This document shows, piece by piece, positions 7,892 to 39,083 of a stretch of 39,083 bases of DNA. A program made the translations under genes and the position numbers. The notes under the pieces were generated by a model that searched no databases, was not told the origin of the DNA, and saw only the letters and a list, made by a program, of their open reading frames with translations. The number at the start of each line of letters is the position of its first letter. Position 1 is the stretch's first letter. Source of the stretch: a virus; IMG/VR virus record IMGVR_UViG_3300032156_000036, positions 1 through 39,083 of that record; one strand, written 5' to 3'.

Positions 7892-8294
7892 CTTCATTTA
7901 CAACAGAGCGTCATATCATGTTGCCAACGGGAACGTAGACCTTGACTCCCATGAGTTGAAAGCCATGCTGCTCAATTCTGGGTATGTCCCTAATGCGGCC
8001 CACAACCGGATCGCTGATGTGGCGGCGAACGAAATATCTGGAACCGGATATACCGCGGGAGGCCAAACCCTAACTGGAGTTGCCCTCACGGAATCGTCAG
8101 GGACTACAACGCTCGATGCGAATGATCCCCAATGGCCTGGGGCTTCTTTCACCGCACGGTATATGGTCGTGTACGACTTCACGGCGAATTATCTCCTGGT
8201 CTGCTTCGATTTCGGATCCAATAAGACGGTCGTTGCCGGAACCTTCACTTACGAGTTCAACGTCCTTGGGTTTATGAGGTTCACCAAGACATGA
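7884..8294 (+). CDS. Small phage structural protein of a known but uncharacterised type
   Basis: The protein has 136 aa. The pattern 'N..i...s..lKamLL..gYvP......Ia.v..nEisgtGYtaGGqtLtg', followed by a WPGASFTARYMVVYDF region and a closing hydrophobic strand, is recurrent in tailed phages, where such proteins are annotated as hypothetical or virion proteins. It is all-beta in appearance. It is wedged between the putative TerS and TerL with overlaps on both sides (8 and 4 bases), so its dosage is tied to theirs. Function unknown. A tail or appendage role is more likely than packaging, given its fold. Confidence 0.65.
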   Translation: MPDFIYNRASYHVANGNVDLDSHELKAMLLNSGYVPNAAHNRIADVAANEISGTGYTAGGQTLTGVALTESSGTTTLDANDPQWPGASFTARYMVVYDFTANYLLVCFDFGSNKTVVAGTFTYEFNVLGFMRFTKT

Positions 8295-10332: not shown

Positions 10333-12366
10333 ATGGTTGGAGATGCCGCCAGAAAACAAGTGGAATATCTTGCGAAGCGAAAAAGCGAGATGGATAGGGC
10401 AATTGACAGTGATCTTCCTCCAGGCATGGACGTTAAAGAGCTTGAGGAAAGGACAGACGCCGCTCAAGCGTATGCCGGTGAAAACGAAAAGCATTTTGTA
10501 GACTACTGTCAGGACTGTATAGACAGCAGCCGAAAGGCCCACGAGGAGATCAGGACAACCTGGGCCGCAGCTTATGACACATTCAAAGAGAGGGAACCAG
10601 CGAATTACGGAAACAAAGAGGAGTGGCAATCTCGAATTGTCCTCCCGCGACCTTTCCAGACTGTCATGTACGGGGCTTCTGCCGTTAAAAAGGCCTTCAA
10701 CCCGAACTTTCTGAAGATCGAGAACAAGAGAACTCCTGAGGCAGCAGAATTCTGGCAAAGAATAGCGGCTGTGGCCTTTGACAGCGCTCACGCGAATTTT
10801 CCAGTTCAATTCACAGATGCCACTGTAATGGCTCTGGCGGTTGGGATGAGCGAGGAAATGATTCCGAGGTGGATTCCTGGGAAAGGGCTAGAAATCGCCC
10901 TTGTCGAACCATGGAAGATCCACCGGGACCTGGACACAGGGCCGAGAGATCCTCAGTCGGGGATGTTTTGGATCCACCAGGAATGGCTCGATTACTGGCT
11001 TTTGAAAAGAGGGGAACAGGACGGCCGGTATGAGAACGTAGACCGGGCGAAGGATATTTCCTCTGAACTACCAGACGATCCTTTCATGACGAGAGAGGCC
11101 GTTGCTGACAGGAAAGACCAAATCTGGAATATCGGTGATTCTAAATTCAGAAGTCTGATTTTGACCTCTGAATTTTTCGGGATTGTTCTGGCGCCGGGTG
11201 GTGAAATGCTTCTTCCAAGCGCCACCTTCACTATTTCGGGCGGAAGGGTGATATCAAAACCGAAACCGGTCCCTTACGGATCCCTGCGATGGCCTGGAGT
11301 TAGCTACTCTCCTTTGCCTGATATTCTCAGGCATGGCGGGAGAGGACTCCTCCAGGGGGTGATCAGCGTTTGGAACGCGATGAATACCGTTATGTGCCTT
11401 CACATGGACAACCTGATCTGGGTGGTGAACCCGATGACGGAGATAAACACCGATCGCCTGGTGGATCCACACGATGCGGCAACATGGCCAGGTAAGGAAT
11501 TCCAGACAAGAGAAGGAGCGCACGGTGAGCCCTCAGTGAGGTCGGTCGAAAGAAATTCAAGGACAAATGAAGTCATTGCAAACATTCAGTTCCTGGATCA
11601 GTCCTACTATCGGGGCTCCTTCGTGCCCGAGAATGTCCAGGGGCTCCCTGGATGGAGGCAGGACATGACTTTCAGAGAAGCATCCATGAATTTGAACCAG
11701 AGCATGAGCGTGTATGCGTTGCTCGGTGAAAATCTTGAGCTTGGAGCGAAGCAAGCTTCCATGGCTTGTCTTGACGTTGTCAGGTCGTTTGCCACTTGGG
11801 ATGATTACAGCCGGATGCTTACCGTTGAGGAGATTGAAAGGTTCAAGGGATCGCTCGGATTTGGCCCGAGTCCTGACAATGAGCTTGGGGTACAGGGGGT
11901 TCCTCCGATAGCAGGGGAACTGAGCATCTCCGGTATAGAGGCACTCTTGAAAGAGAACGAGGCCATGGAAGTCATCAGGAATGTCTTGGTTCCCCTCTCC
12001 CAAAACCCACGGTTTGGCCGATACATCAAAGCGTACCCGATCCTTTCGGCTATCGAGAAGCGCACAGCAATCAAAGACGAAGACATGATTGCCACTCCGG
12101 CAGAAGCGAAGCAGATAGACCAGATGGAGTCAAAGGCTCTTGCTGCAGCACAGGAGAGACAAGCGAAAACCGTTGACCTCCAGGAGGCTCTGGGAATTGC
12201 CGATTTGATGAAAAAGCTTTCCGAAGTGGAAAAGCTTGGCAAAGAAAACATGAAAATGATGCAGGAGACAAAGGCCATGATAGACGCAGGCAGGGGTGGA
12301 CTTTTGGCCCCTCCTGGGCGCGGTTCTCAGGAGGGCGGTAAAAAATCCTTGCAAAACGGCGAATAA
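10333..12366 (+). CDS. Portal protein (head-tail connector)
   Basis: At 677 aa this is large, in the range of podovirus-type portals. The N-terminal part has helical acidic segments, then a WQSRIVLPRPFQTVMYGASAV stretch typical of portal wings. Central residues about 300-350 (SLRWPGVSYSPLPDILRHGG, RGLLQGVISVWNAMNTVMCL) match the conserved portal core and stem: 'G.s.....d......N...d'. The C-terminal ~120 residues are a coiled coil ending in a Gly/Lys-rich tail, which may face the capsid interior. It forms the dodecameric channel to which TerL docks. The gene order TerL - portal - scaffold - capsid supports the call. RBS is AGGAGG. Confidence 0.88.
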   Translation: MVGDAARKQVEYLAKRKSEMDRAIDSDLPPGMDVKELEERTDAAQAYAGENEKHFVDYCQDCIDSSRKAHEEIRTTWAAAYDTFKEREPANYGNKEEWQSRIVLPRPFQTVMYGASAVKKAFNPNFLKIENKRTPEAAEFWQRIAAVAFDSAHANFPVQFTDATVMALAVGMSEEMIPRWIPGKGLEIALVEPWKIHRDLDTGPRDPQSGMFWIHQEWLDYWLLKRGEQDGRYENVDRAKDISSELPDDPFMTREAVADRKDQIWNIGDSKFRSLILTSEFFGIVLAPGGEMLLPSATFTISGGRVISKPKPVPYGSLRWPGVSYSPLPDILRHGGRGLLQGVISVWNAMNTVMCLHMDNLIWVVNPMTEINTDRLVDPHDAATWPGKEFQTREGAHGEPSVRSVERNSRTNEVIANIQFLDQSYYRGSFVPENVQGLPGWRQDMTFREASMNLNQSMSVYALLGENLELGAKQASMACLDVVRSFATWDDYSRMLTVEEIERFKGSLGFGPSPDNELGVQGVPPIAGELSISGIEALLKENEAMEVIRNVLVPLSQNPRFGRYIKAYPILSAIEKRTAIKDEDMIATPAEAKQIDQMESKALAAAQERQAKTVDLQEALGIADLMKKLSEVEKLGKENMKMMQETKAMIDAGRGGLLAPPGRGSQEGGKKSLQNGE

Positions 12367-13651: not shown

Positions 13652-14617
13652 ATGGGTGCTACTTTTACTTGGACTTATGACGCCACGAGTGGCGTTTACA
13701 AAAATCATCAGCTCTCTGGCCAGCTCCTGAAGGTGGCAGCACGCGAATGGAAGTTCGTGCAGTTCACCGAGAAGGAGAAGGCCTTCGGAGCCCACAAGGG
13801 TGAGAGCATCACTCTTGTCTATTACAAACCTCTTTCCGACCCCACCACCTCTCAGCTGACGGAAGATATCCGGATCCCCATCGATCAACTGACCATGGGG
13901 AAACAGACCATCACGATCAAGGAATGGGGGCGTGGCGTTGAGTTCACCTCCCTGGCCGATGACCTCTCCGTGTTCTCTCCGCGAGATGGCGCCCAAAAGG
14001 GCCTTGTCGACCAGATGAAGCAAGCCATGGACGTGGCCGCTTCAGATCAGTTCATGGGAACTGACGCGAAAGTCTGTTTCATCCCGACCTCCCTCACGGG
14101 CGGCACCTGGGACACGGATGGAACTCCGTCAACCACAGCAACGGTCAACATCACCAAAAACCACATCTCCGCGATCCGCGACTACATGGCCAAAGACCTC
14201 CACATTCCTTTCTACTCAGGGGATACCTGGGTGGGCCTCCTTTCCACGAAGGCCTTGAGAGGGCTGAAGGACGATAAGGTCCTGGAGTCCTGGAACATGT
14301 ACCTGCAGAAGGGTGACTTCCTTTACAGGGGCGAAGTGGGGATGGTGGAGAATGTCCGCTTCGTTGAAGTCACGAACGATGCGGCCCTGTCCAACTCCAT
14401 AGGCTCCGGAAACATTCTCGGAGAAGGGGTCATCTTCGGAGAAGACGCGGTAGCCAGGATCGAGGTGGAATTCCCGCACCTCAGGGCGGACATGAACTAT
14501 CAAGGGGATTTCGGGAGACGCAAGGCTGTCGCCTGGTACGGGACAGTCGCTTTCGGAGTCAAATTCCCGACCGCAACTGATCGGGAAGCAAGAATCGTCA
14601 AGATCGTCTCCCAATAA
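13652..14617 (+). CDS. Major capsid protein, HK97 fold (N4 gp56-like)
   Basis: The 321-aa protein has RBS AAGGAGGG. The pattern of a short N-arm, then EKEKAFGAHKGESITL (E-loop region), DQLTMGKQTITIKEWGRGVE, a helical MKQAMDVAASDQFMG spine and a closing MNYQGDFGRRKAVAWYGTVA, followed by REARIVKI, is that of HK97-fold capsid proteins. It is most like the N4 gp56 type. There is no long N-terminal delta domain, which fits a separate scaffold gene upstream. It would build the icosahedral shell around the portal. Aromatic, low-Lys surfaces and ordinary codon use suggest high expression. The family subtype is less certain than the fold. Confidence 0.88.
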   Translation: MGATFTWTYDATSGVYKNHQLSGQLLKVAAREWKFVQFTEKEKAFGAHKGESITLVYYKPLSDPTTSQLTEDIRIPIDQLTMGKQTITIKEWGRGVEFTSLADDLSVFSPRDGAQKGLVDQMKQAMDVAASDQFMGTDAKVCFIPTSLTGGTWDTDGTPSTTATVNITKNHISAIRDYMAKDLHIPFYSGDTWVGLLSTKALRGLKDDKVLESWNMYLQKGDFLYRGEVGMVENVRFVEVTNDAALSNSIGSGNILGEGVIFGEDAVARIEVEFPHLRADMNYQGDFGRRKAVAWYGTVAFGVKFPTATDREARIVKIVSQ

Positions 14618-24918: not shown

Positions 24919-25125
24919 ATGGCAGAGAAAAAACTGGAAGACATGACGACCGAGGAGTTCCTGAAGGCTATGGAGGAGTCCACGAAAAAGAAGGAAACGG
25001 GACCGCCTCCCAAGGAACCGCCGCCTCCGCCCGTGAAGGACGTGGGAAACCCCGCTCAAGCTAAGTCTCAGGAGGATGCACTCAGGAGACGAAACAAGGC
25101 TTTAAAGGAGACGCTTAAAGACTGA
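24919..25125 (+). CDS. Small acidic/basic Pro-rich protein
   Basis: The 68-aa protein is assigned from ATG 24919, which follows GGAGG by five bases; an upstream in-frame ATG at 24886 overlaps the previous gene and lacks an RBS. A helical EKKLEDMTTEEFLKAMEEST start is followed by a KKKETGPPPKEPPPPPVKDV linker, then a basic helix. It is probably disordered. It overlaps the transglycosylase start (TGATG), so it may be a chaperone or tether for it. No family is recognised. Confidence 0.6.
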   Translation: MAEKKLEDMTTEEFLKAMEESTKKKETGPPPKEPPPPPVKDVGNPAQAKSQEDALRRRNKALKETLKD

Positions 25126-25556
25126 TGCCTGACGATGCCTCCACAGATTTGGTCGCCTTGATAGAGGATATAAAGGACGAGTATCCGAAGTTAAAGAATG
25201 TCCCTTCGGATATGCTACTCAGGTTGATCCATGCGGAGAGCACCTTCGATCCTGAGGCGGAAAGCCCGAAAGGGGCCAAGGGACTCATGCAGATCAAGCC
25301 GGAAACGTACGCATGGATTTATCAGAAAGAAAAGATGAGCGTTCCGGACGATATTAAGCATCCCTATAACAACGTCCTTGGGGGGATGTTGTATCTGAAC
25401 TATCTCAAGAAAAAGTTCAAGACGTGGCAATCCGCGGTAGAGGCGTACAACGTTGGTCCTAATGCCTACGTTGATGGAGAGAAAGCCCCACCGGTGTACT
25501 TGAAAAAGATTTTTCCAGAAAAGAAAACGAAAGCGATTAAAGCCCTAGGAGGATGA
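25125..25556 (+). CDS. Soluble lytic transglycosylase (SLT/GEWL fold)
   Basis: The 143-aa protein is a single goose-lysozyme/SLT domain. The catalytic Glu is E38 in LIHAESTFDP, followed by GAKGLMQIKPET (50-61, the G-LMQ-I motif) and AYNVGPNAY (107-115). It cleaves the MurNAc-GlcNAc bond of peptidoglycan with 1,6-anhydro formation. There is no signal peptide. With coiled-coil virion-type proteins around it and a holin-like gene 2 kb upstream, it is either a virion enzyme that opens a path for the tail (as in the T7 gp16 domain) or the lysis enzyme. The virion role is favoured by its neighbours. The domain is compact, without a peptidoglycan-binding module. Confidence 0.9.
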   Translation: MPDDASTDLVALIEDIKDEYPKLKNVPSDMLLRLIHAESTFDPEAESPKGAKGLMQIKPETYAWIYQKEKMSVPDDIKHPYNNVLGGMLYLNYLKKKFKTWQSAVEAYNVGPNAYVDGEKAPPVYLKKIFPEKKTKAIKALGG

Positions 25557-26306: not shown

Positions 26307-26316
26307 GAGGAAGATC

Positions 26317-27615
26317 ATGGCTCAACTCTCAGGACTATATGGCCCTTCGGCGGCTTTAGCAGGTGTTGGGGAGTCCATTTCGGACATTATGAAAACCTGG
26401 GCAGGGGTGAAAATACAGGAAGCAAAGCTGGACCTGGAAGGAAAGCGCCAGGACGTGGATCTTGCCAGAGTTATGGGGGAAATGGAGATCAATCGGTCAA
26501 AAGCCGGCCTGGAAACCGCGAAGCTGGGAGCAGAGGAAAGATGGAAGGAAAAAGAGCAAGGGTACAAAATGGCGACTCTCGCGGAGACCCAGCGCCACTC
26601 CATGGAATTAGAAAGTCAAGGGCGGGAGCAGGTACAGATTGCAAAGGAACAGAAGGGAATCAATCAGCAGATGCTGAAAATTGCTCAAGACAACCACAAG
26701 TACGCCATGCTAGAGAAGGAACGGGACGAGGAGAAAATCTCGTATCAGCAATATGTGACCGAAAGCCCTGCCATCCCTCCAATGTGGAAGAAGGCTTTGT
26801 TGACGGCGGAACCGGAAATACTTAGCCAAATGAACCGCAGAGTCGACTTTAAGCAGATACACAAATGGTTGATCACGGAGAAACCAGGGACCGGCGCCAT
26901 AATGATCAAACAGCAACTCATGGACCGGTACAACAAGCTGAGCGCTGCCGTGAAAGGAATCCCCAAGGGCAATACCCCAGAGGAGATCGCCCAGAACGAG
27001 GCGCAGGCAGAAGCTATCATGCTAGGTGGTGGAGGTCTTTTCGATACGCACACAATGATCGTCAACATGCATATGCTCGGGTCACAAGACGAAGACGACG
27101 TGATCAAGGCCGCGAACGCAATGGTTTTGAAAGCGGAATCGATGGGCAAAGACCTCACCTTCGGGCAGGCTTACTCAATGATCAAGAAGGCTCAGACTGA
27201 TTACCAAACCGAAGTTGGTGGACCTGACAAAGTATTCAAGAACCCGCAAGAAATGTTGCAGTATGTCCGGTTGGCAACCCACGCCAACCAGCAAGGAGTG
27301 GATCCTGATGCCTACATGAATACCCTTGCCAAGGGTATTGCCGATACCTTTCAAGGCCTGGATGAAGCGCAATTTGCAACAGCCGTGAAGGAGCGCGTTA
27401 AGGAATTTCAAAAGAATTACGGAGAAGTGAAAGCCCTTGAATTAAACAAAATGATTTCTGAAAAGCGCAAAGCACGGACCAGCCCGAAGGCCGGTGTCAG
27501 CCTAACTCCCGAAGAAAGGTCAGGGATGGGAATGCAACCAGGCGAAGCACTTGTCAAAGGGGCAAAAAGCCTTGGATCTCTGTTCAAGAATGCTGGGCCG
27601 GTTCCGTTAATGTAG
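26317..27615 (+). CDS. Large coiled-coil internal virion protein candidate
   Basis: The 432-aa protein has RBS TAGGAGGAAG. The N-terminus is Gly/Tyr-rich, then Gln/Glu/Lys-rich coiled coil spans about 30-145 (VKIQEAKLDLEGKRQDVDLA and onward), followed by a helical globular part (about 145-375) and a Gly/Pro-rich tail. There is no catalytic motif, signal or membrane span. It directly precedes the giant polyvalent gene (13 bases) and is likely co-packaged and ejected with it, as core proteins do in podoviruses. That is inference from order. Its stop codon is fused to the next RBS (TAGGAGGAGG). Confidence 0.7.
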   Translation: MAQLSGLYGPSAALAGVGESISDIMKTWAGVKIQEAKLDLEGKRQDVDLARVMGEMEINRSKAGLETAKLGAEERWKEKEQGYKMATLAETQRHSMELESQGREQVQIAKEQKGINQQMLKIAQDNHKYAMLEKERDEEKISYQQYVTESPAIPPMWKKALLTAEPEILSQMNRRVDFKQIHKWLITEKPGTGAIMIKQQLMDRYNKLSAAVKGIPKGNTPEEIAQNEAQAEAIMLGGGGLFDTHTMIVNMHMLGSQDEDDVIKAANAMVLKAESMGKDLTFGQAYSMIKKAQTDYQTEVGGPDKVFKNPQEMLQYVRLATHANQQGVDPDAYMNTLAKGIADTFQGLDEAQFATAVKERVKEFQKNYGEVKALELNKMISEKRKARTSPKAGVSLTPEERSGMGMQPGEALVKGAKSLGSLFKNAGPVPLM

Positions 27616-27627
27616 GAGGAGGTTTTG

Positions 27628-30600
27628 ATGCCTGCTGAATGGATCAATGAAATTTTCGAGAAACAACGGCAACAAGACACTGGTAAGCCATGGGAAGCTA
27701 CCATCACAGAGGGGAATCCTTGGTTGGAGTGGGAGAAGAAGTATGCCCCGGATCTGTACGAGAAAACGATTTCTTCATTTGCCAAGAAAGCTCGAGTATC
27801 TCCTATCGAGGGAGAGGACATTCCAGACTGGAAAGTTCCTGATGTAGAACTCGCTCCAGAGCATCTCCAGAAGCCCGACTATCAAGAATTATCCAACAGT
27901 CCAGACTATCTTGATTTAGTAAGCAGGGGTCTCCAGACCGGAGTTTACGAAATGCTTGCCCTGCCTGGTGTTGTCGGCTCATGGCTCGCGCATAGGCTGC
28001 GGCTTGAAAGCGTAGCGGAATCTTCAAAAGGCTGGGCCGATTTCTGGATGAACAAAGCGGATGAACTCCGTCCGAAAGATCTGGATATGTTCAACGTCAT
28101 GGACAATCCGGAGGTTCTGGCGAGCGCTGCGTGGTGGGTTTACAACCTTGCTGAGATGGCTCCGTCGATGGTCCTGACCATGGGAGCCGGGGCATTGGCC
28201 ATGAAAGGGGGAGCCAAGCTCGGTGCACGGATGTTTGCCAGGAAAATGGCCGGAAAGGAGATTACGACAGAAGCGGGGTTTACAGCCGCAAAAGAAGCCG
28301 GAGAGAAATTCGTTACAAGGGCCGGTAAAATCGGCGCGTGGATCGGCGGCGGCGTGACCGGAGGCGCTACAGAGGCGCAACAGACCTACCTGGAGATATT
28401 AAAAAGGGGTGGGTCAGAAGAAGAAGCGGCACGGTCGGCAGAACTCATGTTCTTCGGGGTGGGCGCCCTCAATGCGTTCGGGACTGAGTGGATCCTGCGC
28501 AAAGCCGGGAACACCTTTCTCTCAAAAGTCGGCCGCGTTTTCGGGGCCTCTATGGTTGAGGGGATCACGGAGGGTCTTGAAGAACCCTGGGAAGTCATTT
28601 CCAAACTCGGCGGGGCGATACTGGCGGGTCAGAAACTGCCTGACGATGTTGAAGGCATGTTCTACGACTCACTCAAGAGCGCCCTAACAGTTTTCCCGCT
28701 GGCTGCCGTGATGGGCGGCGGCGCAGAAGTGGTGACGACCGTAAGCAACACGAAACTGGAGCGTCTCCGGAAGGAATACGAGGACAACAGAAAGCTGGCG
28801 AAGGATTACTACTTAAAGAAAATAACCAAAATATCCGATGAGACGATAGACAAAACCTCCACAACCGGCCACCAAAAGCGACTGTTCCGAGAACCTCCAG
28901 GCTTATTCGATCAGCCGATGGGAACTCAGGCGGATGAAACGGCTAAAACGGTCCTAGAAGAAACACCACCGGCAGAAGCCATTATTAAAAAAGCAGAAGA
29001 AGGACAGAAATCAGATGTCAAAGCGATTGAGGACATGCTTCCCCCAGAGGGTGCTGGGCCTGCTGGACAGCCTGGGCCTGCTGGACAGCCTCCACAGTTG
29101 GGGCCTGGGCCTGCTGGAGAAGGAACAGCAACCGGTGCGGAGGAGGCTCCGCTTGGTTTCATCCCGTTCCCGCAGTTCTGGGACGCAACACCAGCGGATC
29201 AAGCTGAGGAGTTCAAGCGGACCGTAGACTTCATGGGCAATCAAGCTCCTGAGATTCACAAGTATATCAAGGAAGCGTATGAAAACATGCTCATGGAGCA
29301 CTTCGAAAACATTAAAATCGAAGTGACTAAGGCAGCTCAAGAAGCTGGCGTTCCGAAAGACAAGATAGACGACGTTGTCGAGCAGTTCACGGTAGAGGCC
29401 CAAGCCAGTTTTGACAATCGGATAACCCACAGACAAATCCTGGATCGGATTCTTGAGCCTTTCGCAGAAGAACCGGGGGGCGAGGGAGCGCCAGGGACCG
29501 GGCCAGGGGAGATCATAGGAGGGCCAGTAGGGGGCGGGGAAGGTGGCCTTAAGGGCACTCCGACGAACATTAAGGAAATAAATCTCGCCTTGGACATTGA
29601 AGACAAGACCGGGGAACTGCCGGAACTGCCCAGAGAACACTTCGTAAGGCTTGCCGAAGCCAATGGGATCGAGACGAAGGGCAAGACCCCAAAGCAAATG
29701 ATGGACGAGCTTAGGGCTATCCGTGACGCTAAACCAGTAGCACCAGGAGGCGAAGCCCCTGCCGAAGCCCCAAAAGGGACGAGAGCCGGAAGATGGAAGA
29801 AACTATTTGGAGTAGGAACGAAGACAGAGCCGACACCCGAACCGATACCGGCAGCGGGAGCTGGGGAAGCCCCAAAAGCCGCTGAACCAAAACATCAACC
29901 CCCTTTCTACACTGATACCCAGGGCCGGAATATCTACGTCAACGAACTTTCGAAAGAAGCTGGAGGCGGTTTCGGATGGTACAGGACTGAGGATCTCAAT
30001 AAGAAAGGCAGACGCTTCAAGCCTCCATCTGTCCCGGGTGACATGAAGGGAACCTCAACCGCGGTCTCTACCGGGGAACGAACGGAGTTTACCGTCCCGG
30101 CCACGTGGACCACGCGGGAAGCAGCTCAAGAAGCCCTCCACAAGTACGCTGCAGAACAACCCTGGACAGCTCCTGAGGGATTTGAAAAGAGGCCACGCGC
30201 TCCCAAAGAAGCCGTAACGATCCACCCGGTAGAGAAGATGCAAGCCCAGCAAAAAGCGAGACAGGAGCTTGCCCGCAGGCAACCATATCTAGCGGAACAC
30301 ATTCTCCTTTGGGGCGGAGTATCCACTAAGGCTGGGGAAGAAATTACCAAGGTCGTCCAGGGCATGTCCGGCAAGCGAATGACCGTGGCGAAAGGCCTGG
30401 ACCTGTTCAGAAAGAATGGGAATGCCATGGACGAGCTGGTCTCTCATGCCACAGAGGGTTCAAACCCGTTCATCCAGAAAAGGGAAGGCTGGAGCGCGAG
30501 CGAGTATGAGGAGGAGTTCATCAGGCTTTTTCTCAAGGACTTGGAGGCCCGTACGGAGTTCTCTGAGCTCACCGGCAACCACCAGGCCAAGTGGCGAAGG

Positions 30601-33600
30601 CTGAACGAAAAGTTAAATAAGATCCCGAAGGAGGCCACTGAGGAAAGAAAAGCGATCCAGCTCAAGCTAAAGCATATCGAGAACCAGATCAGGGCGTTCG
30701 GTGAACAAACTGGCCGAGTTGGAAGGATAGCTGATGAGGAGGATAGAGCTGGAAACCAGCAGCAACCACAGGAAGAACCGGAGGAAGGAGGCCCGGAAAC
30801 TCCGGTCCTTAGCCGTAAGGACTTCACTACATGGGCCGAAGGCGAAGAAAGGCTTAAAGCCTTGGAGCCATGGGATCTCGATCTCGTCTTTCAAAAATTG
30901 GATCAATGGACATTCGACAACCCGGTAGAGGCAAACAAGCTCACTACTTGGGAAGAACGGATGGACGCAGCTGACGCGTGGCCTCCTGGAGGTGGAGGGA
31001 CCGCAGAGACAGTTACCCCAGGGTTCAAGATTGAATACGGTGGGACTCCTATTTCCGGTAAAGAGGCGGTCGCGCCAAAGCAGGGAGTAATTACCCACAT
31101 CACTCCCGCCGAGAATGCAGCGGAAGCCATCGAAAAAGCGAAGCCTCTATTCCCAAGCCCAGCCATGAAGGAGCTTACCAAAGCTGAGAAAATGAAGAAG
31201 CTTTTTGAGGAACCCGAAAAGCCTTTCGAGTTGAAGCCCACGGAACCCACGACTGAGGAGAAGATAGCCGAGGGCATTAGAAAAGGTATACTCAAGAAGG
31301 GTCCGAAGGGCGGTCCACGGGCGAAACTTCCAGAGGAGAAACGGAAAGCTCCTACTACCGGGAAACAAGAGTCCATCATAGAGAAGCCTGCAGAGAAGGG
31401 CGAGCAGTCCGATTTCCTGGACGAAGCGGTGAAGCAGGCCAAAAGCGAAGAAAAGAGGAAAGCTCTTGAGGGGCAGGCAAAGGAAGGAGACGAAGCAGCT
31501 CAGAAAGACATAAAGGATATCCTGGACACGCTCCAGATGCGCAAGGAGGGCATCCCGCACGACACCCCGATCTCTCCGGCCGGACTTGTCCAGGTGATGA
31601 TGGCAAATGCGTATTTCAAAGCCGCCAAGAGCGGTGATGTGGAAGCCGCTGCGAAACTCGTTCAAGCCCTTGTATCACCGCAGCAGATTGCTTTTGCCAA
31701 GAAGTTCGGGAAAGAAGCAATTTACGTGCCGATCATTGCCGACGAAAAGGAAGGCAAGAACAAGATCCCGCTCGCGTTCGCTTATCACGTCGCTTCTAAG
31801 ACCGGGGCCAAAGTAAGCACGGACATTATCCAAGCGAGCAGGGTAGCCAGAAAGGGCAAGGGACTCCTGGAAAGGATGTTCCGAAGGGCAGATTTTGAAG
31901 GAAAGGTCCGAAAGGGTGGGCTGTACGTCATATTCGATGATGCCCTGGTCACCGGGGGGACTATTGCTGAAGTAGCAAACCATATCCTTCAGAACGGGGG
32001 CCAGGTGGTTGGAATAATGGCTCTTGGCAAAACGCCTGGAGCCTGGTATGATCTCACCATAGATCAGGCCACTTACAACGAAATCAGAGAGAGGTTTGGT
32101 CATGCGATCGAAGAAATCTTTGCAGTCAATCCTTCCGCGCTCACCAGCCGTGAAGCGCAGTTCTTCCTTAAGGCCTATCGCACAGTTGACGCCCTTAGAG
32201 AAGCGGCAGCTGAGACAGGATACCGCCAGTTCCGTGGAGGCTTTGTCTCAGCATTACCCGAAGGTGGCCCTTCTTCAATAGATCCAGAAAAGTACGTCAA
32301 GATCAAAGCCATCCTGGACAAACTCTGGAAGGAAACCCAGGCGCTTGCCAAAACCAACGGACTCACGGACGATGAAACCGACGTGTTTTTTATCGACCGT
32401 GTCCATAAGTTGATTGGCAGAGACGACCGGATCAAACCCTATTTCCACAAATTTGCCGAGGACACATGGCAGGAGGCGAAAGATGAGAAAGCTACAAGAC
32501 GAACCGAAGTTCATGAGCCAGCCGATCCAGGAGGACCGCCCACTCCTGGAGGAGTTGGAGCGGCTAGCCCTGGAGGGGGACGACAAGGAATTCGCCCAGG
32601 GCTTAGAGTGGCTGACGAAGACAATCTACCAGAACCCAGAGATCAGATCCCTGCTGGACAATACAGTATTCTTGGGGAGGAGCAGCGACTCGGAATCAAC
32701 CTCATCCTTGACGCCTTCGACAGAGGGAAAAAAGGTTTCCTCCTGAGTGACGGAACTGGAGTGGGTAAAACCATGATCCAGTTAGTCGCTGCGAAGCTGT
32801 GGGCGCAAAAAACCGGGAAGAAAAGTCTGATCATCGCCCCAAACCTTCAAATCATAGAGGGACGCTTCAGAGAGGATGCCAGATATCTCAAAATGGACCT
32901 CTCTCAAATTGAATTCGCCACGTATTCCGGCCTTAGAGTCGGGAAAGGTGGTCAAGGGACCTATGGAGTTGTCATCTTTGATGAGGCCCACAATCTCAAG
33001 AACATGGAGGCTGAAAAAACACTCGCCGCAAACGATATCAAAGCCGATCACCGAGTTTACGCCACCGCAACCCCGATGGATAAGCCGACCGGAGCAGCTT
33101 ACTTCCTTTCCAGAATTACCGGGATCCCAGAAGCCAGATTGCACACGGAACTTGGTTTTGTAGTTCGCGAGGTCTGGGACGCAGAAGAAAAGAAATTCAA
33201 AAAGTTCACAGAACGGCTTCCTGGAGTGAGCTGGGCGAGGGTCATGGAAAACATCGTCAAGTTTCGCCACAAAGCCATCCTGGAAGGAACTATCCTCAGA
33301 AGGGAGTACCCCTTATTCGGTAACATAAAGATTGAAGCTGAGCCACTTCCCGCTCACCTGGCGGCAGAACAGCACAGGATCGAAGACTATTGGGGTGCAA
33401 GAATCGCTGCGGCAGCGATGCCGATTGCAAAGATGCACCTGCGGGGGCAACGCACCCAGGAACTTTCTCGGTGGGCCGATGCCCAAAAGGTTGACAGGAT
33501 CTCCGAGCGGGTCGCGGACGACTTGGCAAACGGTTTCAGGGTGGTCATTGTTGCCCACGGAGTTGAGCCTACAATCATCAAGGGATTACAGAAGCGGATC

Positions 33601-36600
33601 CCCCAGCTCATCGGCGGCCTTGTGGAGAACCTTAAGCAGAGAGGGATAACTGATTTTGCGAAAATATATGGCCCTAACCAAGTAAAAAAGCTGTCTGAGA
33701 TTCGCAGGTTTCAAGCCGACAAAGTGAAGTTGGCCATCATGACCGCAGAAAGCGGCGGCGCCGGCGTCGACCTGGACGATGTTCACGGAGACAAGCCAAG
33801 AAGGGTTTACATTTCCTCCCCATCGTTCCAGGGTGATACTTTCCAGCAAGTGATAGGAAGGTTTTCGCGGCGAAACACAGCGAGCCCCGTTGAAATCGTT
33901 TTTCCCATGTGGCAGGATTCGGAGGGGGACAACCGGCGAGCTATCGTTGTTACAAGGAAGATAGAAACCCTCAGGAGGATCCAAGAGGGTGATGACATTG
34001 ACAAGGCTATCGGGTTTGAGGATACCGAGGAGATGCCTACTGGATCACCTCCAATGTCCGATGAAACTCCCAGGTCGCCCCCCAGAGAGGACATAAAAGC
34101 CAGGATCGATGAAATCGCCCAGGAGGTGAAAGCTCGCCCAGTTCATAGTTCCATACGGGACCACGAACTTGCCCTCCTAAAGAGGCTTGCCGAGGGAAAA
34201 GAGCCAATCGTCTATGTTAAGGATGACGCCACCCGAAAGCATTTCCAAACCAACCTATGGCTTACCTGGAAAGCGCAGTCGCACGGGATCTCACAAAAGC
34301 CAATTGCAGATCATGTCGAGCTCGTCCATGGCGGCGGCGATATAAACGCCATGACCTTCCAGGTCCTTCGCCCTTACGGGAAACTTCACTTCGATCCAAG
34401 GGACGGAGAATTGAAGCTTCTGTCCGGCACAACTCTGATTACCGATGCCATTTTCCAAGGGCCACTGATCAACGCCGCGCGCGTTATTCCATTCCCTGTA
34501 AGACCCTCCAGAGAGATCAAGACGGAGCCCTGGGATGAAGGATGGGAAACCAACCCTGAAGATCCCCTTGCTTCAATTGCTGTAGGCCAAGCAGATGCGG
34601 AAGTCCAAGTTTTCAAGAACGATGAAGCAAGTCTCATGTTGAATGATGAGGACAAATATTACATAGCCAGAAAAGACGGTACGTTGGTCTACAATCCAAC
34701 GTCCGAAAGCGCCATATTTGACACGGCGGAAGATGCGAAGAAACAGTTTTTCAAGGAAAGACAGGTCAATGAGCCACTGATCAACGCTCAAAAAACTGAG
34801 CGAGAAGTGAAGGCTGGAATCGATCCGTTCACTAACTGGATCAACCGAATGAAGGACGTGGCAAATGCAAACCCTGCGAAAACACTTGTCACCGAGTTGT
34901 TCCAGAACTCAAGAGATGCCTTGGTCCAGATGGCAAAAAAGGGTGCGAAACAGGTCGGTGCGTACGCCCCAACCTTAACCATCAGATGGAGCCGCTCGGA
35001 GAACCTGGTGGAGTTCGATGACAACGGGGTCGGAATGACTGCCACCCAGATCGAAAAGAATTTTCTCGTTCTTGGAGATATCAACAAGGGAACAGAAGAT
35101 TCCGGCGCGTTCGGTCTGGCAAAGGCTTTCTTCTTGCTCTATCCGAAAGCTGGACGCTTGGAAACCGTTAAGGATGGCAAGAGACACATCATCGAATGGG
35201 AGCCAGAAGACGTTTTTCTAGCGAAAAAAATGAAAGTCCGAACGGAGGATTTCAACGGTCCGAATGGGACGAAAGTCACCCTTTTCCTTAATGAGAAAAT
35301 GACACCCCGTTTCAAGTGGGAGGATTTTGTTAGCGAGCTTGACCGATTTGCCTCCTCCGTTCGGACTCCAGGGCTGCGGATCAACCTTGAGCCGAATATT
35401 GGGGTCGTTAATGATCGAGGTCCCCTCTCCAAAGTACCGGATTTTGACAGGACAATGGGAGACAAAGGCTCTAATATGTGGAAAACGGTGACAACCGTTG
35501 GTTGGGACTCTGAAAAGCTCTGGAAAGGATCCCCGAAAGTCCCAACCGGGAAGATGAAATTCAACTACCTTGGGAATAAGGGGACGGTCTATTTTGTTGA
35601 AATCGATCCACTCGATCTCCTCAGGAAAAACGTAAAAAGCTTTGATGGGAGGCCGGTGGTTAGAGCTTTTACGTATAATAAAGGAATGCCCACTCAGGTC
35701 AACCTTCCGAACTTCATGTATTGGCATCCCCTCAGCTCCCCAGAAAACCTATGCATTTATGTGGATTTTGAGGACACGGTCAGGCCGGAACAGTCTCAAT
35801 TCGATCTCAAGGAAGCATGGGAATCGGGGGATAAAGACAGGATCGATGCGGCACGCGACAAGTATGCCAAAGATGCCGATGCGTACCCGTGGATTAACAA
35901 CAGGAAAGATTTATCTGATTCAAGTAGCAATAATCTCAGCCAGGTGATCGGGCCAGTCCTAGACCAGCTACGTGATGATCAGATCGCACAGAAGATGGAA
36001 CGCTTCAAAAAGATGATCAACGAAGCGGCGGTAGTGAACGGCATGAAGGTCCTTATCCCGTTCAAGGATGATGCGGAAAAACAAATTGCCAGGAAGATTT
36101 TTGATGACAACAAGGATTTCTTCGGCGCATGGACGGAGTACTACGATGCCGTAGGGAAACTCATGGAGAACGTCAGGAAGGAATACCCCGGCATGCAACT
36201 GCCAGAACGCAAGCTCTACCTGACGCTGATGCAGGGAATCGCCGGGTTTGTTCCTAACCAGAAAACAGTACTGGAACTTAGGGGACCTGAGTACGCTTTT
36301 ATTGCGCTCAACCCACTCGGACATGATGAAAGATATCTTAAATGGATGAAACAAAATGGCATGGATATTACAGATCCAGCCAACCTGCATGACCGAGCTG
36401 CCATGATCGTATTCGCAACAATACACGAATTCGCCCATCTCTACGGGGAGGGACACACAGATTCCAATTCTGATCCTTTCGCTATCGCGCACGGCATGCT
36501 TGGCTCAGCAATCAAACACATTAGGTTGGCTATTTTAGAGGAGCAGGTTTATGAAATTCTACAACGTTTCAAAGGCAGACTGTCAGGCATTGAAAGTGGC

Positions 36601-39083
36601 CTATCAAGCCTGGGAGCAGGCGGGAATGAATTTTCGCAAGATCTTGGAACGGTGGTTGGACCTGAGTGGATCCAGGGACCAGGCGCGGGAATCATACATC
36701 CGCTTTCTACCGGTACTGGAAGCCCTGGAGAGAGGGGAGGAGGTCGAGGGTTTAACAGAGGAGACCTCACCAGCGCCCTCCTTGGAAGGGCAGGAAGCCC
36801 CCAAGCAATCCAAAACCTGACCCAACAACCCACAGGGCGGCAGGTGGCCTGGGACTACGAGCAAAACCGCACCTGGGCCGTGAAGCTGTTCGAAATGCTC
36901 AACCCCGCTGAAATCCATATCTCGAACACGATCAACAAACTTCAGAAGAAGATTCAAGGTCTGGCCGGAAGCGCCAGTAAAGTGCATCCGGTAAGGAATC
37001 CGTTCTGGTTTTTGGCTTACGACAAAAGATTGAAAAGAAGTCAAGCATCGGATGATCTTGACCGGGCGATGTTCCTTTTCCGTGACAGCGCAAACGGCAA
37101 CCGAGAGGTTTTCAACCGGTTCCGGCAAATCGCTGACGCTCAGCTGAATGATCCAAATGGCTACCTGACTACCATGGGAATGGCTGCCGATAGCCCAATG
37201 GGCAAAAGGATCCTATCCGGAGAGCACAAACTGTATCTTAAGAAAATCCTGAGACTCTTGGACGTTGCAGAGCGCATGAACCCTGATCAAGTCCATTTCG
37301 TTGATGAAATGGCAGAGCTGTTCAGAGATGCCGGAGCCCTTGCCAACCGTCATGGTCTGCTCAAGTCATTCGTGGAGAACTACGTCCGCAGGGTTTACAA
37401 GGTCAGGAAGGGAGAGGACATTACGCCGACCGGCCAGGGCCACGCCTTCAAGACCTACTTCACTCCTGCAATGCCACGAACCTACCATTATGTGCTTGAT
37501 GCGATTCTAGATGGATATGAACTCGGGACCGAAGGGATCACCAACGCTTACAAAATTTACATGGACGAGCTTACCAAGGTTATCCAAAACAAAGCCTTCA
37601 TCAAGCTCGGAATGGGCACTCATGATTCCCTTGGCCAACAACTGTTCAGCACCAACCGGAAAGACGGTTACTCCAAGCTCAATGGATTCAACGTTTGGGT
37701 GTGGGCCGGAGACGTGTGGGCCGAAAAAGAGATCCCTGGCTTCCCCGCGCTTCATATAAACGAGTACGGGAAACGATTCTTTGCGACTCCTCCGCGGGAA
37801 CTGCCTGAGATGTGGAAAGTCGGCCGGAAGTATTTCGATGATGAAGCAGCAGCCAGACAGTATGCAAAGGAACGCGGTGGCAAGGAAGTCACATATGTGA
37901 AAGCCAAAGACACATCAACCTTTTTCGAGAAAGTCGATCTGTACGCTCCAAAGCAACTTGCCGAGATAATCAACAAAATGACCCAGACGGATACTCTTTT
38001 CCGTTCCGGTGCGCTTAATGAGGTCATGCGGTTCAACGCAGGGATTAAAGCCTGGGTGTTGATGAGTTCGTTCTTCCATCATTTGGCCGGCACCAGATCC
38101 TGGGTGTTCGGCGTGCATCACGGATGGAAGTGGTCCAAGGTGGCTCCATGGAGGGCTTACAAGGCGGGCCTGGACAAGATTAATGCCCTTCACCCTCAGA
38201 TCATGCTTGGAGTGAAAAACGGGCTTACCCTAGGGGAGATTGCCGACTTTTCAGAATTCGAGCTGAGATCCGCGAAGGGCTTTACGGAAAGGATCGTTTC
38301 CCATTTCGGTCTTGAAAAGCCTCTCGGCTTGGTTGAATGGTTCAAGTTCAAAAGGGAGAGTTGGGCTGACAGCTTGTTCAAGAAATTCTTTGCAGGGCTT
38401 AAAGCAGAGGCTTTTGTAATCGAGTACAACCACGCTCTCCAAGGGGCAATGGATGAGTACCGGCTTGGAAAAAGAAACGCCCCACCGGATCCAGACAGGA
38501 TCGCGGAAGCGGTGGCCAAACTGATCAATGACGATTTCGGTGGCCTGCATCTCAAGAGGATGGGCAGGAACCCCACTCTGCAAAACCTTTTCCGGCTGAC
38601 CTTTTTGGCGCCGGACTGGACTGAGTCCAATTTCCGGTATGTGTTCGCCTCCCTTGGTCTGGAGGGCGTGATCAACAAAATGGTCACGGACATAGCCCCG
38701 CCACCGGAATACAAGGCCCTGGCTCGAAAGTTCGTCACCCGGGTCATGTTGAGGATTGCCGTGATGACGATCCTTGCCCAGCTCATGCTCAACTGGAAAG
38801 ACGACACTGAGGATTTTCTTAAGGAGCAGATGTTCTCCAACCGCTTCAACCGATTCCGGTGGACCGAGGTGGATATCTCGAAGCTCTACCAGATGATGGG
38901 TGTGGATCCGGAACAAAGAACGACCTTCAGCATTGGTGGTCATTTCTTTGACCCGCTCAAGATGATCGCGCCCTTCAAGCTCATGAAAGGCAAAGGAAGC
39001 CCGGTCTGGAGGATAGGAGATGCCTTATTCTCCGGCTCAGATTGGGCAGAACGGCCTTTCACTTCAATCTCCGAACTTGCCGC
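27628..39083 (+). CDS. Giant polyvalent protein: PRTase - SF2 helicase - GHKL ATPase - metzincin (3' partial, at least 3818 aa)
   Basis: The frame is open to the window end, with RBS AGGAGGAGG. N-terminal third: Gly-rich hydrophobic helices (about 165-370) suited to membrane passage, Pro/Gly/Glu linkers, and a SAP-like motif (about 668-699). PRTase (about 1345-1475) has VIFDDALVTGGTIAEV at 1434-1449. Strawberry-notch-like SF2 helicase (about 1685-2110) has Walker A DGTGVGKT 1708-1715, DEAH 1785-1788, ATATP 1812-1816 and motif VI QQVIGRFSRRN 2073-2083. GHKL ATPase (about 2395-2650) has E2423...N2427..D2430, DDNGVGM 2464-2470 and GAFGLAKAFF 2493-2502. The zincin motif is HEFAHLYGEGH at 2933-2943. 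The C-terminal part (3070 onward) includes hydrophobic stretches near 3470 and FLAPDWTESNFRYVF near 3668. Such proteins are thought to be injected with phage DNA to counter host defences. All active-site residues are intact. Two linkers are overprinted. Confidence 0.9.
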   Translation, partial: MPAEWINEIFEKQRQQDTGKPWEATITEGNPWLEWEKKYAPDLYEKTISSFAKKARVSPIEGEDIPDWKVPDVELAPEHLQKPDYQELSNSPDYLDLVSRGLQTGVYEMLALPGVVGSWLAHRLRLESVAESSKGWADFWMNKADELRPKDLDMFNVMDNPEVLASAAWWVYNLAEMAPSMVLTMGAGALAMKGGAKLGARMFARKMAGKEITTEAGFTAAKEAGEKFVTRAGKIGAWIGGGVTGGATEAQQTYLEILKRGGSEEEAARSAELMFFGVGALNAFGTEWILRKAGNTFLSKVGRVFGASMVEGITEGLEEPWEVISKLGGAILAGQKLPDDVEGMFYDSLKSALTVFPLAAVMGGGAEVVTTVSNTKLERLRKEYEDNRKLAKDYYLKKITKISDETIDKTSTTGHQKRLFREPPGLFDQPMGTQADETAKTVLEETPPAEAIIKKAEEGQKSDVKAIEDMLPPEGAGPAGQPGPAGQPPQLGPGPAGEGTATGAEEAPLGFIPFPQFWDATPADQAEEFKRTVDFMGNQAPEIHKYIKEAYENMLMEHFENIKIEVTKAAQEAGVPKDKIDDVVEQFTVEAQASFDNRITHRQILDRILEPFAEEPGGEGAPGTGPGEIIGGPVGGGEGGLKGTPTNIKEINLALDIEDKTGELPELPREHFVRLAEANGIETKGKTPKQMMDELRAIRDAKPVAPGGEAPAEAPKGTRAGRWKKLFGVGTKTEPTPEPIPAAGAGEAPKAAEPKHQPPFYTDTQGRNIYVNELSKEAGGGFGWYRTEDLNKKGRRFKPPSVPGDMKGTSTAVSTGERTEFTVPATWTTREAAQEALHKYAAEQPWTAPEGFEKRPRAPKEAVTIHPVEKMQAQQKARQELARRQPYLAEHILLWGGVSTKAGEEITKVVQGMSGKRMTVAKGLDLFRKNGNAMDELVSHATEGSNPFIQKREGWSASEYEEEFIRLFLKDLEARTEFSELTGNHQAKWRRLNEKLNKIPKEATEERKAIQLKLKHIENQIRAFGEQTGRVGRIADEEDRAGNQQQPQEEPEEGGPETPVLSRKDFTTWAEGEERLKALEPWDLDLVFQKLDQWTFDNPVEANKLTTWEERMDAADAWPPGGGGTAETVTPGFKIEYGGTPISGKEAVAPKQGVITHITPAENAAEAIEKAKPLFPSPAMKELTKAEKMKKLFEEPEKPFELKPTEPTTEEKIAEGIRKGILKKGPKGGPRAKLPEEKRKAPTTGKQESIIEKPAEKGEQSDFLDEAVKQAKSEEKRKALEGQAKEGDEAAQKDIKDILDTLQMRKEGIPHDTPISPAGLVQVMMANAYFKAAKSGDVEAAAKLVQALVSPQQIAFAKKFGKEAIYVPIIADEKEGKNKIPLAFAYHVASKTGAKVSTDIIQASRVARKGKGLLERMFRRADFEGKVRKGGLYVIFDDALVTGGTIAEVANHILQNGGQVVGIMALGKTPGAWYDLTIDQATYNEIRERFGHAIEEIFAVNPSALTSREAQFFLKAYRTVDALREAAAETGYRQFRGGFVSALPEGGPSSIDPEKYVKIKAILDKLWKETQALAKTNGLTDDETDVFFIDRVHKLIGRDDRIKPYFHKFAEDTWQEAKDEKATRRTEVHEPADPGGPPTPGGVGAASPGGGRQGIRPGLRVADEDNLPEPRDQIPAGQYSILGEEQRLGINLILDAFDRGKKGFLLSDGTGVGKTMIQLVAAKLWAQKTGKKSLIIAPNLQIIEGRFREDARYLKMDLSQIEFATYSGLRVGKGGQGTYGVVIFDEAHNLKNMEAEKTLAANDIKADHRVYATATPMDKPTGAAYFLSRITGIPEARLHTELGFVVREVWDAEEKKFKKFTERLPGVSWARVMENIVKFRHKAILEGTILRREYPLFGNIKIEAEPLPAHLAAEQHRIEDYWGARIAAAAMPIAKMHLRGQRTQELSRWADAQKVDRISERVADDLANGFRVVIVAHGVEPTIIKGLQKRIPQLIGGLVENLKQRGITDFAKIYGPNQVKKLSEIRRFQADKVKLAIMTAESGGAGVDLDDVHGDKPRRVYISSPSFQGDTFQQVIGRFSRRNTASPVEIVFPMWQDSEGDNRRAIVVTRKIETLRRIQEGDDIDKAIGFEDTEEMPTGSPPMSDETPRSPPREDIKARIDEIAQEVKARPVHSSIRDHELALLKRLAEGKEPIVYVKDDATRKHFQTNLWLTWKAQSHGISQKPIADHVELVHGGGDINAMTFQVLRPYGKLHFDPRDGELKLLSGTTLITDAIFQGPLINAARVIPFPVRPSREIKTEPWDEGWETNPEDPLASIAVGQADAEVQVFKNDEASLMLNDEDKYYIARKDGTLVYNPTSESAIFDTAEDAKKQFFKERQVNEPLINAQKTEREVKAGIDPFTNWINRMKDVANANPAKTLVTELFQNSRDALVQMAKKGAKQVGAYAPTLTIRWSRSENLVEFDDNGVGMTATQIEKNFLVLGDINKGTEDSGAFGLAKAFFLLYPKAGRLETVKDGKRHIIEWEPEDVFLAKKMKVRTEDFNGPNGTKVTLFLNEKMTPRFKWEDFVSELDRFASSVRTPGLRINLEPNIGVVNDRGPLSKVPDFDRTMGDKGSNMWKTVTTVGWDSEKLWKGSPKVPTGKMKFNYLGNKGTVYFVEIDPLDLLRKNVKSFDGRPVVRAFTYNKGMPTQVNLPNFMYWHPLSSPENLCIYVDFEDTVRPEQSQFDLKEAWESGDKDRIDAARDKYAKDADAYPWINNRKDLSDSSSNNLSQVIGPVLDQLRDDQIAQKMERFKKMINEAAVVNGMKVLIPFKDDAEKQIARKIFDDNKDFFGAWTEYYDAVGKLMENVRKEYPGMQLPERKLYLTLMQGIAGFVPNQKTVLELRGPEYAFIALNPLGHDERYLKWMKQNGMDITDPANLHDRAAMIVFATIHEFAHLYGEGHTDSNSDPFAIAHGMLGSAIKHIRLAILEEQVYEILQRFKGRLSGIESGLSSLGAGGNEFSQDLGTVVGPEWIQGPGAGIIHPLSTGTGSPGERGGGRGFNRGDLTSALLGRAGSPQAIQNLTQQPTGRQVAWDYEQNRTWAVKLFEMLNPAEIHISNTINKLQKKIQGLAGSASKVHPVRNPFWFLAYDKRLKRSQASDDLDRAMFLFRDSANGNREVFNRFRQIADAQLNDPNGYLTTMGMAADSPMGKRILSGEHKLYLKKILRLLDVAERMNPDQVHFVDEMAELFRDAGALANRHGLLKSFVENYVRRVYKVRKGEDITPTGQGHAFKTYFTPAMPRTYHYVLDAILDGYELGTEGITNAYKIYMDELTKVIQNKAFIKLGMGTHDSLGQQLFSTNRKDGYSKLNGFNVWVWAGDVWAEKEIPGFPALHINEYGKRFFATPPRELPEMWKVGRKYFDDEAAARQYAKERGGKEVTYVKAKDTSTFFEKVDLYAPKQLAEIINKMTQTDTLFRSGALNEVMRFNAGIKAWVLMSSFFHHLAGTRSWVFGVHHGWKWSKVAPWRAYKAGLDKINALHPQIMLGVKNGLTLGEIADFSEFELRSAKGFTERIVSHFGLEKPLGLVEWFKFKRESWADSLFKKFFAGLKAEAFVIEYNHALQGAMDEYRLGKRNAPPDPDRIAEAVAKLINDDFGGLHLKRMGRNPTLQNLFRLTFLAPDWTESNFRYVFASLGLEGVINKMVTDIAPPPEYKALARKFVTRVMLRIAVMTILAQLMLNWKDDTEDFLKEQMFSNRFNRFRWTEVDISKLYQMMGVDPEQRTTFSIGGHFFDPLKMIAPFKLMKGKGSPVWRIGDALFSGSDWAERPFTSISELA
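29056..29091 (+). repeat. Two perfect 18-bp tandem repeats in a linker of the giant gene
   Basis: The unit gggcctgctggacagcct occurs at 29056-29073 and 29074-29091, encoding GPAGQP twice. A partial third copy follows around 29105. The repeat lies in a Pro/Gly-rich spacer (residues about 477-500), where length variation should be tolerated. Confidence 0.9.
32483..32746 (+). CDS. Overprinted small ORF in the PRTase-helicase linker (+1 frame)
   Basis: The 87-aa ORF has AGGAGG (32471-32476) six bases before ATG 32483; an in-frame ATG at 32414 lacks an RBS. The first ~60 residues look like a real helical protein (RPLLEELERLALEGDD, EFAQGLEWLTKTIYQNPEIR). The last ~25, where the helicase domain begins in the other frame, are a Ser/Thr-rich tail. 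Over the first 60 codons I count about 8 with G at codon position 2, against about 18 in the giant frame, where the same DNA reads as PADPGGPPTPGGVGAASPGG. This is the pattern expected if the small frame came first. It may encode a separate protein or be a relic. Caveat: the RBS also follows from the giant frame's Q-E-A codons. Confidence 0.5.
   Translation: MRKLQDEPKFMSQPIQEDRPLLEELERLALEGDDKEFAQGLEWLTKTIYQNPEIRSLLDNTVFLGRSSDSESTSSLTPSTEGKKVSS
36551..36820 (+). CDS. Overprinted small ORF after the metzincin domain (+1 frame)
   Basis: This 89-aa ORF has AGAGGAG (36537-36543) seven bases before ATG. TTTTAGAGGAG recalls the stop-RBS junctions used between genes elsewhere here (for example TAGAGGAG at 7267). 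The protein looks normal: MKFYNVSKADCQALKVAYQA, RKILERWLDLS and YIRFLPVLEALERGEE give amphipathic helices with aromatics, then an acidic Pro-rich tail. The giant frame reads the same DNA as Gly/Ser-rich linker (GLSSLGAGG, SPGERGGGRG). About 15 of 89 codons have G at position 2 in the small frame, against about 33 in the giant frame (hand count). Function unknown. It may be expressed independently. Confidence 0.55.
   Translation: MKFYNVSKADCQALKVAYQAWEQAGMNFRKILERWLDLSGSRDQARESYIRFLPVLEALERGEEVEGLTEETSPAPSLEGQEAPKQSKT

Follow-up and report, generated by a model that had tools for sequence, protein, structure and literature searches.

A giant polyvalent protein gene of an uncultivated tailed phage carries a GHKL-zincin module that recurs in other phage giants

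The virus record IMGVR_UViG_3300032156_000036 was analysed over its entire length of 39,083 bp (hereafter the window), and its right-hand part was found to be occupied by a single giant gene. The predicted product carries, in order, a phosphoribosyltransferase (PRTase) domain, a superfamily 2 (SF2) helicase, a GHKL ATPase and a zincin-type protease domain (Table 1). The original prediction had described one uninterrupted frame of more than 3.8 thousand amino acids with four enzymatic signatures in this order; the frame is indeed open throughout, and Pfam, PHROG and profile evidence placed all four domains where they had been expected. The overall kind of protein, a phage polyvalent protein, is already known. 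The GHKL ATPase and the zincin together make up a single conserved unit, which is also present in dozens of other giants encoded by uncultivated phages and is apparently undescribed.

Integrity of the gene was assessed by comparison with a relative, IMGVR_UViG_3300032894_000334 (68,760 bp), which is 96-97% identical; its virion block corresponds to that of the window with 93-97% DNA identity. This relative encodes a complete orthologue, an open reading frame (ORF) of 3917 amino acids (aa) from a TTG codon and 3916 aa from an ATG. If the focal C-terminus ends as in the relative, the full-length focal protein would comprise ~4,027 aa. The two genes could be aligned over 3703 codons with no stop or frameshift, and none of the conserved stops that might have contradicted the prediction occurs in the 3916-aa orthologue. 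The ratio of non-synonymous to synonymous substitution rates (dN/dS) was 0.11 overall (188.7 synonymous versus 75.3 non-synonymous changes). The segments covering the helicase, the GHKL domain, the zincin region and the PRTase gave 0.05-0.18; constraint was looser in segments 1545-1680 and 2650-2800 (0.37-0.40). The Pfam scores of the focal protein alone for GHKL and PRTase lie under the curated cut-offs, which could suggest that the four domains are chance motif matches within a long low-constraint frame. The overall dN/dS and the independent profile, fold and family evidence presented below make this extremely improbable, and the relatives have already refuted it.

GHKL domains bind ATP and commonly dimerise. 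For the focal domain taken alone the evidence is moderate (HATPase_c_3, 1.2e-4, on the fragment; NCBIfam HSP90 family, 1.2e-4), and hhalign aligned it to a set of cellular GHKL domains at 93%, compared with 0.1-1.2% for other, non-overlapping stretches of the giant. Searches with the focal protein (which returned one close relative only), a motif survey of PRTase giants and a Pfam scan of 50 PRTase records had suggested that the domain is unique to the focal pair, i.e. the window and its relative. This view was overturned by pattern scans with mixed alignments: the scan seeded by a mixed GHKL alignment revealed 44 loci, nearly all of them in giant ORFs. The alignment of the whole module (GHKL, middle and zincin domains) comprises 31 rows, falling into 27 clusters at 70% identity, with a median pairwise identity of 25%. 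HATPase_c_3 matches every one of these 31 members (best 2.2e-15), and the GHKL motifs (N-box, G1 DxGxG and G2 GxxG) are invariant or nearly so. With the relatives included, the case for a GHKL domain is strong.

The closest solved relatives of the module GHKL domain belong to the HSP90 family (HtpG, TRAP1). The whole-module profile matched HSP90/TRAP1 structures in PDB at 1e-11, and hhalign aligned the GHKL part to HtpG at 98%. A collinear P[FL]NxxRE motif is present in the middle region of both, but the middle and C-terminal domains of HSP90 have no significant match in the module, where the zincin comes next. Comparison of the middle region with HtpG gave 0.1% by hhalign, and the collinear PxNxxRE match scored below zero bits, so that the alignment of R2759 with the HSP90-type catalytic Arg is a suggestion only.

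Similarity was also detected to rIIA of T4-like phages, a protein of 725-754 aa. The GHKL domain of one module member matches rIIA of a Klebsiella phage (28%, 5e-6; 1.4e-14 against the module profile), only the N-terminal GHKL part of rIIA (profile positions 5-188) being involved. The rIIA protein of T4 itself did not match the focal GHKL domain, nor was it found by the module profile. Three loci (L221, L222 and L224) encode standalone phage GHKL proteins of 822-835 aa that are akin to the module ATPase and roughly rIIA-like in length. rIIA has been discussed as a counter-defence protein (PMC7824862), and the relationship would fit a giant that is made in the infected cell for replication or counter-defence, as rIIA is in T4, and never enters the virion. 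We consider this unlikely, as the gene sits in the virion block and not beside replication genes, and several other PRTase giants also adjoin terminase, portal or virion genes.

Zincins cut peptide bonds. The focal domain contains an HExxHxxGxxH motif at residues 2933-2943 (1.5e-4 such motifs expected by chance), and it had been predicted to be a metzincin. This assignment was not supported across the family. The metzincin Gly, present in the focal pair, is carried by only 2 of 40 family members, and position 11 from the first His (the third-ligand position) is H in 32 of the 40 and E in five. Among the 31 modules, 12 matched the Pfam model WLM (best 1.4e-5), seven YgjP and two SprT-like, and no metzincin appeared among the 25 families listed. 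Matches of the zincin profile in PDB were weak, with WLM/Wss1 and the minigluzincin proabylysin (0.02-0.05) ahead of metzincins (0.17 and above); hhalign of this profile with metzincins reached 57%, over just 43 columns. The focal zincin on its own was left unplaced by hhalign (ArdC-type metallopeptidases, 0.7%; zincins of other PRTase giants, 1.8%; metzincins, 23% over 18 columns). Because WLM/Wss1 comes first in the PDB order and the metzincin Gly is rare, the domain is better called WLM/SprT-like, and it appears nearer to these Wss1-like proteases than to metzincins. The module zincin shares an HExxHxxxxxH-type active site with WLM/SprT proteases (Wss1, SPRTN), minigluzincins and YgjP. It differs from WLM/SprT proteins in that the similarity is weak and local, some members have Glu at the third-ligand position, and the domain is fused behind a GHKL ATPase.

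The distance between the two domains is conserved. Among the 43 phage ORFs that continue for 500 aa or more from the start of GHKL, 40 contain an HExxH motif 442-588 aa beyond GHKL (median 522; 530 in the focal orthologue), compared with ~0.12 HExxH expected for a slot this wide. The remaining three ORFs, which lack the motif, are the standalone proteins mentioned above. Complete ORFs bearing the pair range from 1,709 to 4,970 aa. Residues invariant in the 31-row alignment occur in all three parts: N, D, G, G, M, K, G, G, A and G in the GHKL domain, G, Q, Y-P and R in the middle domain, and N-P and HExxH in the zincin. The conserved spacing and the residues kept in both halves indicate that GHKL and zincin form one composite module. 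The module may begin as early as 3% or as late as 71% along the ORF, which argues that the two domains travel as a unit. The early hunch that a GHKL domain next to a zincin is unusual was therefore right and extends well beyond one protein.

A module profile run against 398 Pseudomonadota genomes found only ORFs of HtpG length, matching the ATPase part alone. When the focal protein and three further members served as tblastn queries, no full module was detected in 50,697 phage records, and a further scan with the module alignment added zero loci to the earlier set. The open-access literature searched contains no description of a GHKL-zincin pairing, and the main text of PMC5512222 does not mention GHKL, HSP90, WLM, Wss1 or SprT.

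The main rival to a host-directed role for the module is self-processing, in which the zincin would cleave the giant into its functional parts, either at assembly or following entry, and the GHKL domain would serve as an ATP-dependent switch. Processing of polyvalent proteins has been proposed as a general role of zincins (Iyer et al., 2017; PMC5512222), the focal giant has large Gly/Pro/Ala-rich linkers between its domains, and the module is embedded in multi-domain chains. However, everywhere it was found the zincin is paired with one particular partner, GHKL plus the middle domain, at a near-constant distance, and simple self-cutting needs no such tie; we regard self-processing as possible but the less probable explanation.

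Comparison of the giants with one another points to a mosaic organization. The L184 protein is collinear with the focal one in three regions, namely the helicase, the complete module (25% identity, 5e-37) and the last 740 residues (30%), while L242 has the helicase and the module in common with it. In L282 and L298 the similarity to the focal giant covers the C-terminal region and some of the helicase, and the module is absent. From these patterns, the giants look like assemblies of exchangeable enzyme modules mounted on common terminal regions. The ordered set of domains, which the original prediction treated as unfamiliar, recurs in part elsewhere: the helicase followed by the GHKL-zincin module recurs in L184 (with the C-terminal region) and L242, and among the loci examined a PRTase in front of the module was found only in the focal pair. 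A further sign of modular change is the in-frame stretch that separates the focal helicase from the GHKL domain and is absent from the relative (Table 1). The 15-bp sequence GCCACTGATCAACGC flanks it as a direct repeat (34461-34475 and 34773-34787), and a single copy remains in the relative.

The PRTase domain matches PHROG 22413 at 4e-44 (residues 1326-1531). It resembles KfrC of IncP-type plasmids (up to 39% identity) and a coat/MuF-type protein of Moraxella phage Mcat8. The motif for binding phosphoribosyl pyrophosphate (PRPP) is kept across an alignment of 39 sequences, with D124, D125, G130 and T132 invariant, and an AlphaFold model (predicted local distance difference test, pLDDT, 79.6) matches PRPP-binding proteins of the PRTase fold in PDB with Z up to 9.5. 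The domain is consistent with the phage/plasmid PRTase group described by Iyer et al. (2017), whose role was termed enigmatic by these authors (PMC5512222). KfrC (of IncP/IncU plasmids) and the Mcat8 MuF-type protein belong to the same group, with 31-37% identity in the alignment and common DD...GG[ST] and NKIP motifs; they are a small protein and a coat/MuF-type fusion, whereas the focal PRTase is one domain within a giant. Overproduction of KfrC from plasmid RA3 is toxic and leads to condensed nucleoids, and growth was no longer slowed once the DDT motif was replaced (PMC8124265). The PRTase is also found in many other phage giants: our survey contained 63 PRTase ORFs with a length of 600 aa or more, and 58 of these have at least 2000 aa. 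Two of the other PRTase giants, L061 and L029 (3,700-4,300 aa), carry inorganic pyrophosphatase, helicase, methyltransferase-like MTS, LPD39 and DUF6908 domains.

The helicase (residues 1684-2110 in the Pfam scan) scored above the cut-offs for ResIII (37.7 bits) and SNF2-rel_dom (29.1), and relatives with 35-45% identity are present in many giant phage ORFs of up to 5,986 aa. It had been labelled Sno-like; AAA_34 (Sno N-terminal) reached 21.9 bits against a cut-off of 27, and Helicase_C_4 was not listed at E<=1. The description as an SF2, SNF2-type helicase is safe, and the Sno label is not established. The motif survey detected no methylase motif beside the focal helicase. Its candidacy as a ZorD-type defence component was rejected, the resemblance to ZorD-type SNF2 helicases detected by PADLOC extending over short stretches only.

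Table 1. Predicted features of the giant gene and of the neighbouring virion genes in the window (strand + throughout; residues refer to the giant protein)
Feature	Coordinates	Strand	Remarks
Giant polyvalent protein gene	27628..39081	+	3818 codons; ATG start 27628; 3' end cut by contig end
Shine-Dalgarno-like site	27614..27622	+	AGGAGGAGG; 5 nt before the ATG of the giant gene
N-terminal region, residues ~110-400	27955..28827	+	Gly/Ala-rich, moderately hydrophobic segments
PRTase domain, residues 1326-1545	31603..32262	+	phage/plasmid KfrC-like group; PRPP motif FDDALVTGGT intact
SF2 helicase, SNF2/ResIII-type, residues 1680-2110	32665..33957	+	Walker A GTGVGKT, DEAH, QxxGRxxR
In-frame 312-bp stretch (104 aa)	34461..34787	+	between helicase and GHKL; absent from relative
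GHKL (HSP90/rIIA-type) ATPase, residues 2415-2560	34870..35307	+	ELFQNSRDA, DNGVGM, SGAFGLAK, NGT
Middle domain, residues 2561-2849	35308..36174	+	G2686, Q2690, Y2753-P2754, R2759 invariant in 31 modules
WLM/SprT-like zincin, residues 2850-3010	36175..36657	+	NP 2895-2896; HEFAHLYGEGH 2933-2943 (36424-36456)
C-terminal region, residues 3065-3818	36820..39081	+	common to giants L184, L282, L298, 28-43% identity
Terminase large subunit	8291..9802	+	PHROG 979
Portal / head-tail connector-like gene	10333..12366	+	PHROG 332, 2.9e-7
Major capsid protein	13652..14617	+	PHROG 1357, 2.5e-16; Phage_capsid_4
SLT lytic transglycosylase, virion-lysozyme-like	25125..25556	+	Pfam SLT, 1.8e-22; PHROG 342 internal virion protein
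432-aa gene, immediately 5' of the giant	26317..27615	+	no family found; 96% conserved in relative

The N-terminus of the giant is not hydrophobic as had been predicted: it opens with ~110 residues of hydrophilic character, followed by moderately hydrophobic segments around 174-192 and 352-370. Residues ~110-400 gave a weak match to N4 virion RNA polymerases (E 0.028). The C-terminal region (residues 3065-3818) matched no Pfam family. Upstream of the giant, terminase, connector-like, capsid and SLT genes are all encoded on the same strand. The position of the gene after core-type virion genes was thus borne out at some distance, and family searches with the three nearest genes (25558-27615) gave no convincing match. 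The giant of locus L061 is likewise preceded by an unknown gene of similar size (L061:1136-2644).

This setting would also suit a structural or ejection-channel protein of the virion, with its enzymes being relics or serving genome ejection only and not host attack. The gene follows the SLT gene and the unknown 432-aa gene within the virion block, its product has a Gly/Ala-rich N-terminal region with faint similarity to N4 virion RNA polymerase, and L282 and L298 have the C-terminal region but not the GHKL module. Relics would decay, though, and the catalytic residues are invariant in 31 divergent modules, with low dN/dS across the enzymatic segments of the focal gene. An explanation of this kind is therefore improbable in our view.

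The reading we favour, with a probability of roughly 0.6, is that of a polyvalent giant of a tailed phage, packaged and delivered with the DNA, whose PRTase, helicase and ATP-gated GHKL-zincin protease act on the host. The original prediction of a giant multi-enzyme protein of the polyvalent kind near virion genes is upheld to this extent. Packaging in the virion and delivery with DNA appear most likely. After entry, the PRTase would use PRPP and thereby may perturb host metabolism, as the toxic KfrC with its required DD motif might suggest, and the helicase would move along DNA. The GHKL part could act as a dimeric, ATP-driven clamp or chaperone presenting selected host proteins to the zincin, which would cleave them; these substrates are probably DNA-bound or defence-related, although this is a guess. 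The notion of a single enzyme stems from the conserved pairing of GHKL and zincin, that of DNA-bound substrates from the resemblance to Wss1/SprT, and that of counter-defence from the resemblance to rIIA. ATP-gated proteolysis, delivery with DNA and the host target are all things that we infer from sequence. The focal giant agrees with the polyvalent proteins of Iyer et al. (2017; PMC5512222), including P1 DarB-like and N4 virion RNA polymerase-like giants, in being a giant multi-enzyme protein beside virion genes, and PRTase, SWI2/SNF2-type helicase and zincin are all in their domain list. It differs from them in having no methylase motif beside the helicase and in the GHKL-zincin pairing, which their main text does not describe.

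Several observations weigh against the favoured reading. Structure prediction of the module from two near-identical sequences gave a pLDDT of 31 and was unusable, the middle domain does not match that of HSP90 significantly, and the focal zincin itself reaches no Pfam zincin model. Moreover, most module-bearing giants are without a helicase and the PRTase accompanies the module only in the focal pair, so the four domains need not share a pathway.

An ATPase and a protease kept at near-constant distance over 27 divergent clusters suggest a specific machine rather than a loose collection of domains. We propose, tentatively and with low confidence, that the module could be a phage-specific ATP-dependent metalloprotease, uniting a rIIA/HSP90-type ATPase with a Wss1/SprT-like protease, which is injected with the genome and removes DNA-bound or defence proteins of the host at entry. 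Should it prove to be an ATP-driven protease that enters together with the DNA, the module would offer a direct test of a phage disarming the cell in the first minutes of infection; it would also provide a possible link to rIIA counter-defence proteins and, for biochemistry, a new kind of regulated protease. The module is at the same time a sequence handle by which such giants can be found and classified in uncultivated phages.

Some features of the genomic context concern the phages rather than the giant protein. T7-type connector genes were found in five module-bearing records, and at least those phages are probably podoviruses. The SLT gene was rejected as a regular neighbour of the GHKL-zincin module, having been seen in only 3 of 34 records. 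A terminase scan of prokaryote genomes for prophage kin found none. Within the virion block of the window, the gene at 19088-22270 encodes a Laminin_G_3 (concanavalin A-like) domain (6e-14). The relative, although closely similar elsewhere, lacks counterparts of the large genes in the leftmost part of the window (405-5962), among them a tail-spike-like one, and this difference suggests a swap of a receptor-binding module. In the relative, a gene on the minus strand (L005:13631-15244) overlaps the end of the giant gene and encodes a 538-aa protein resembling Wzy_C O-antigen ligases (3.9e-14), possibly involved in modification of the host surface and exclusion of other phages.
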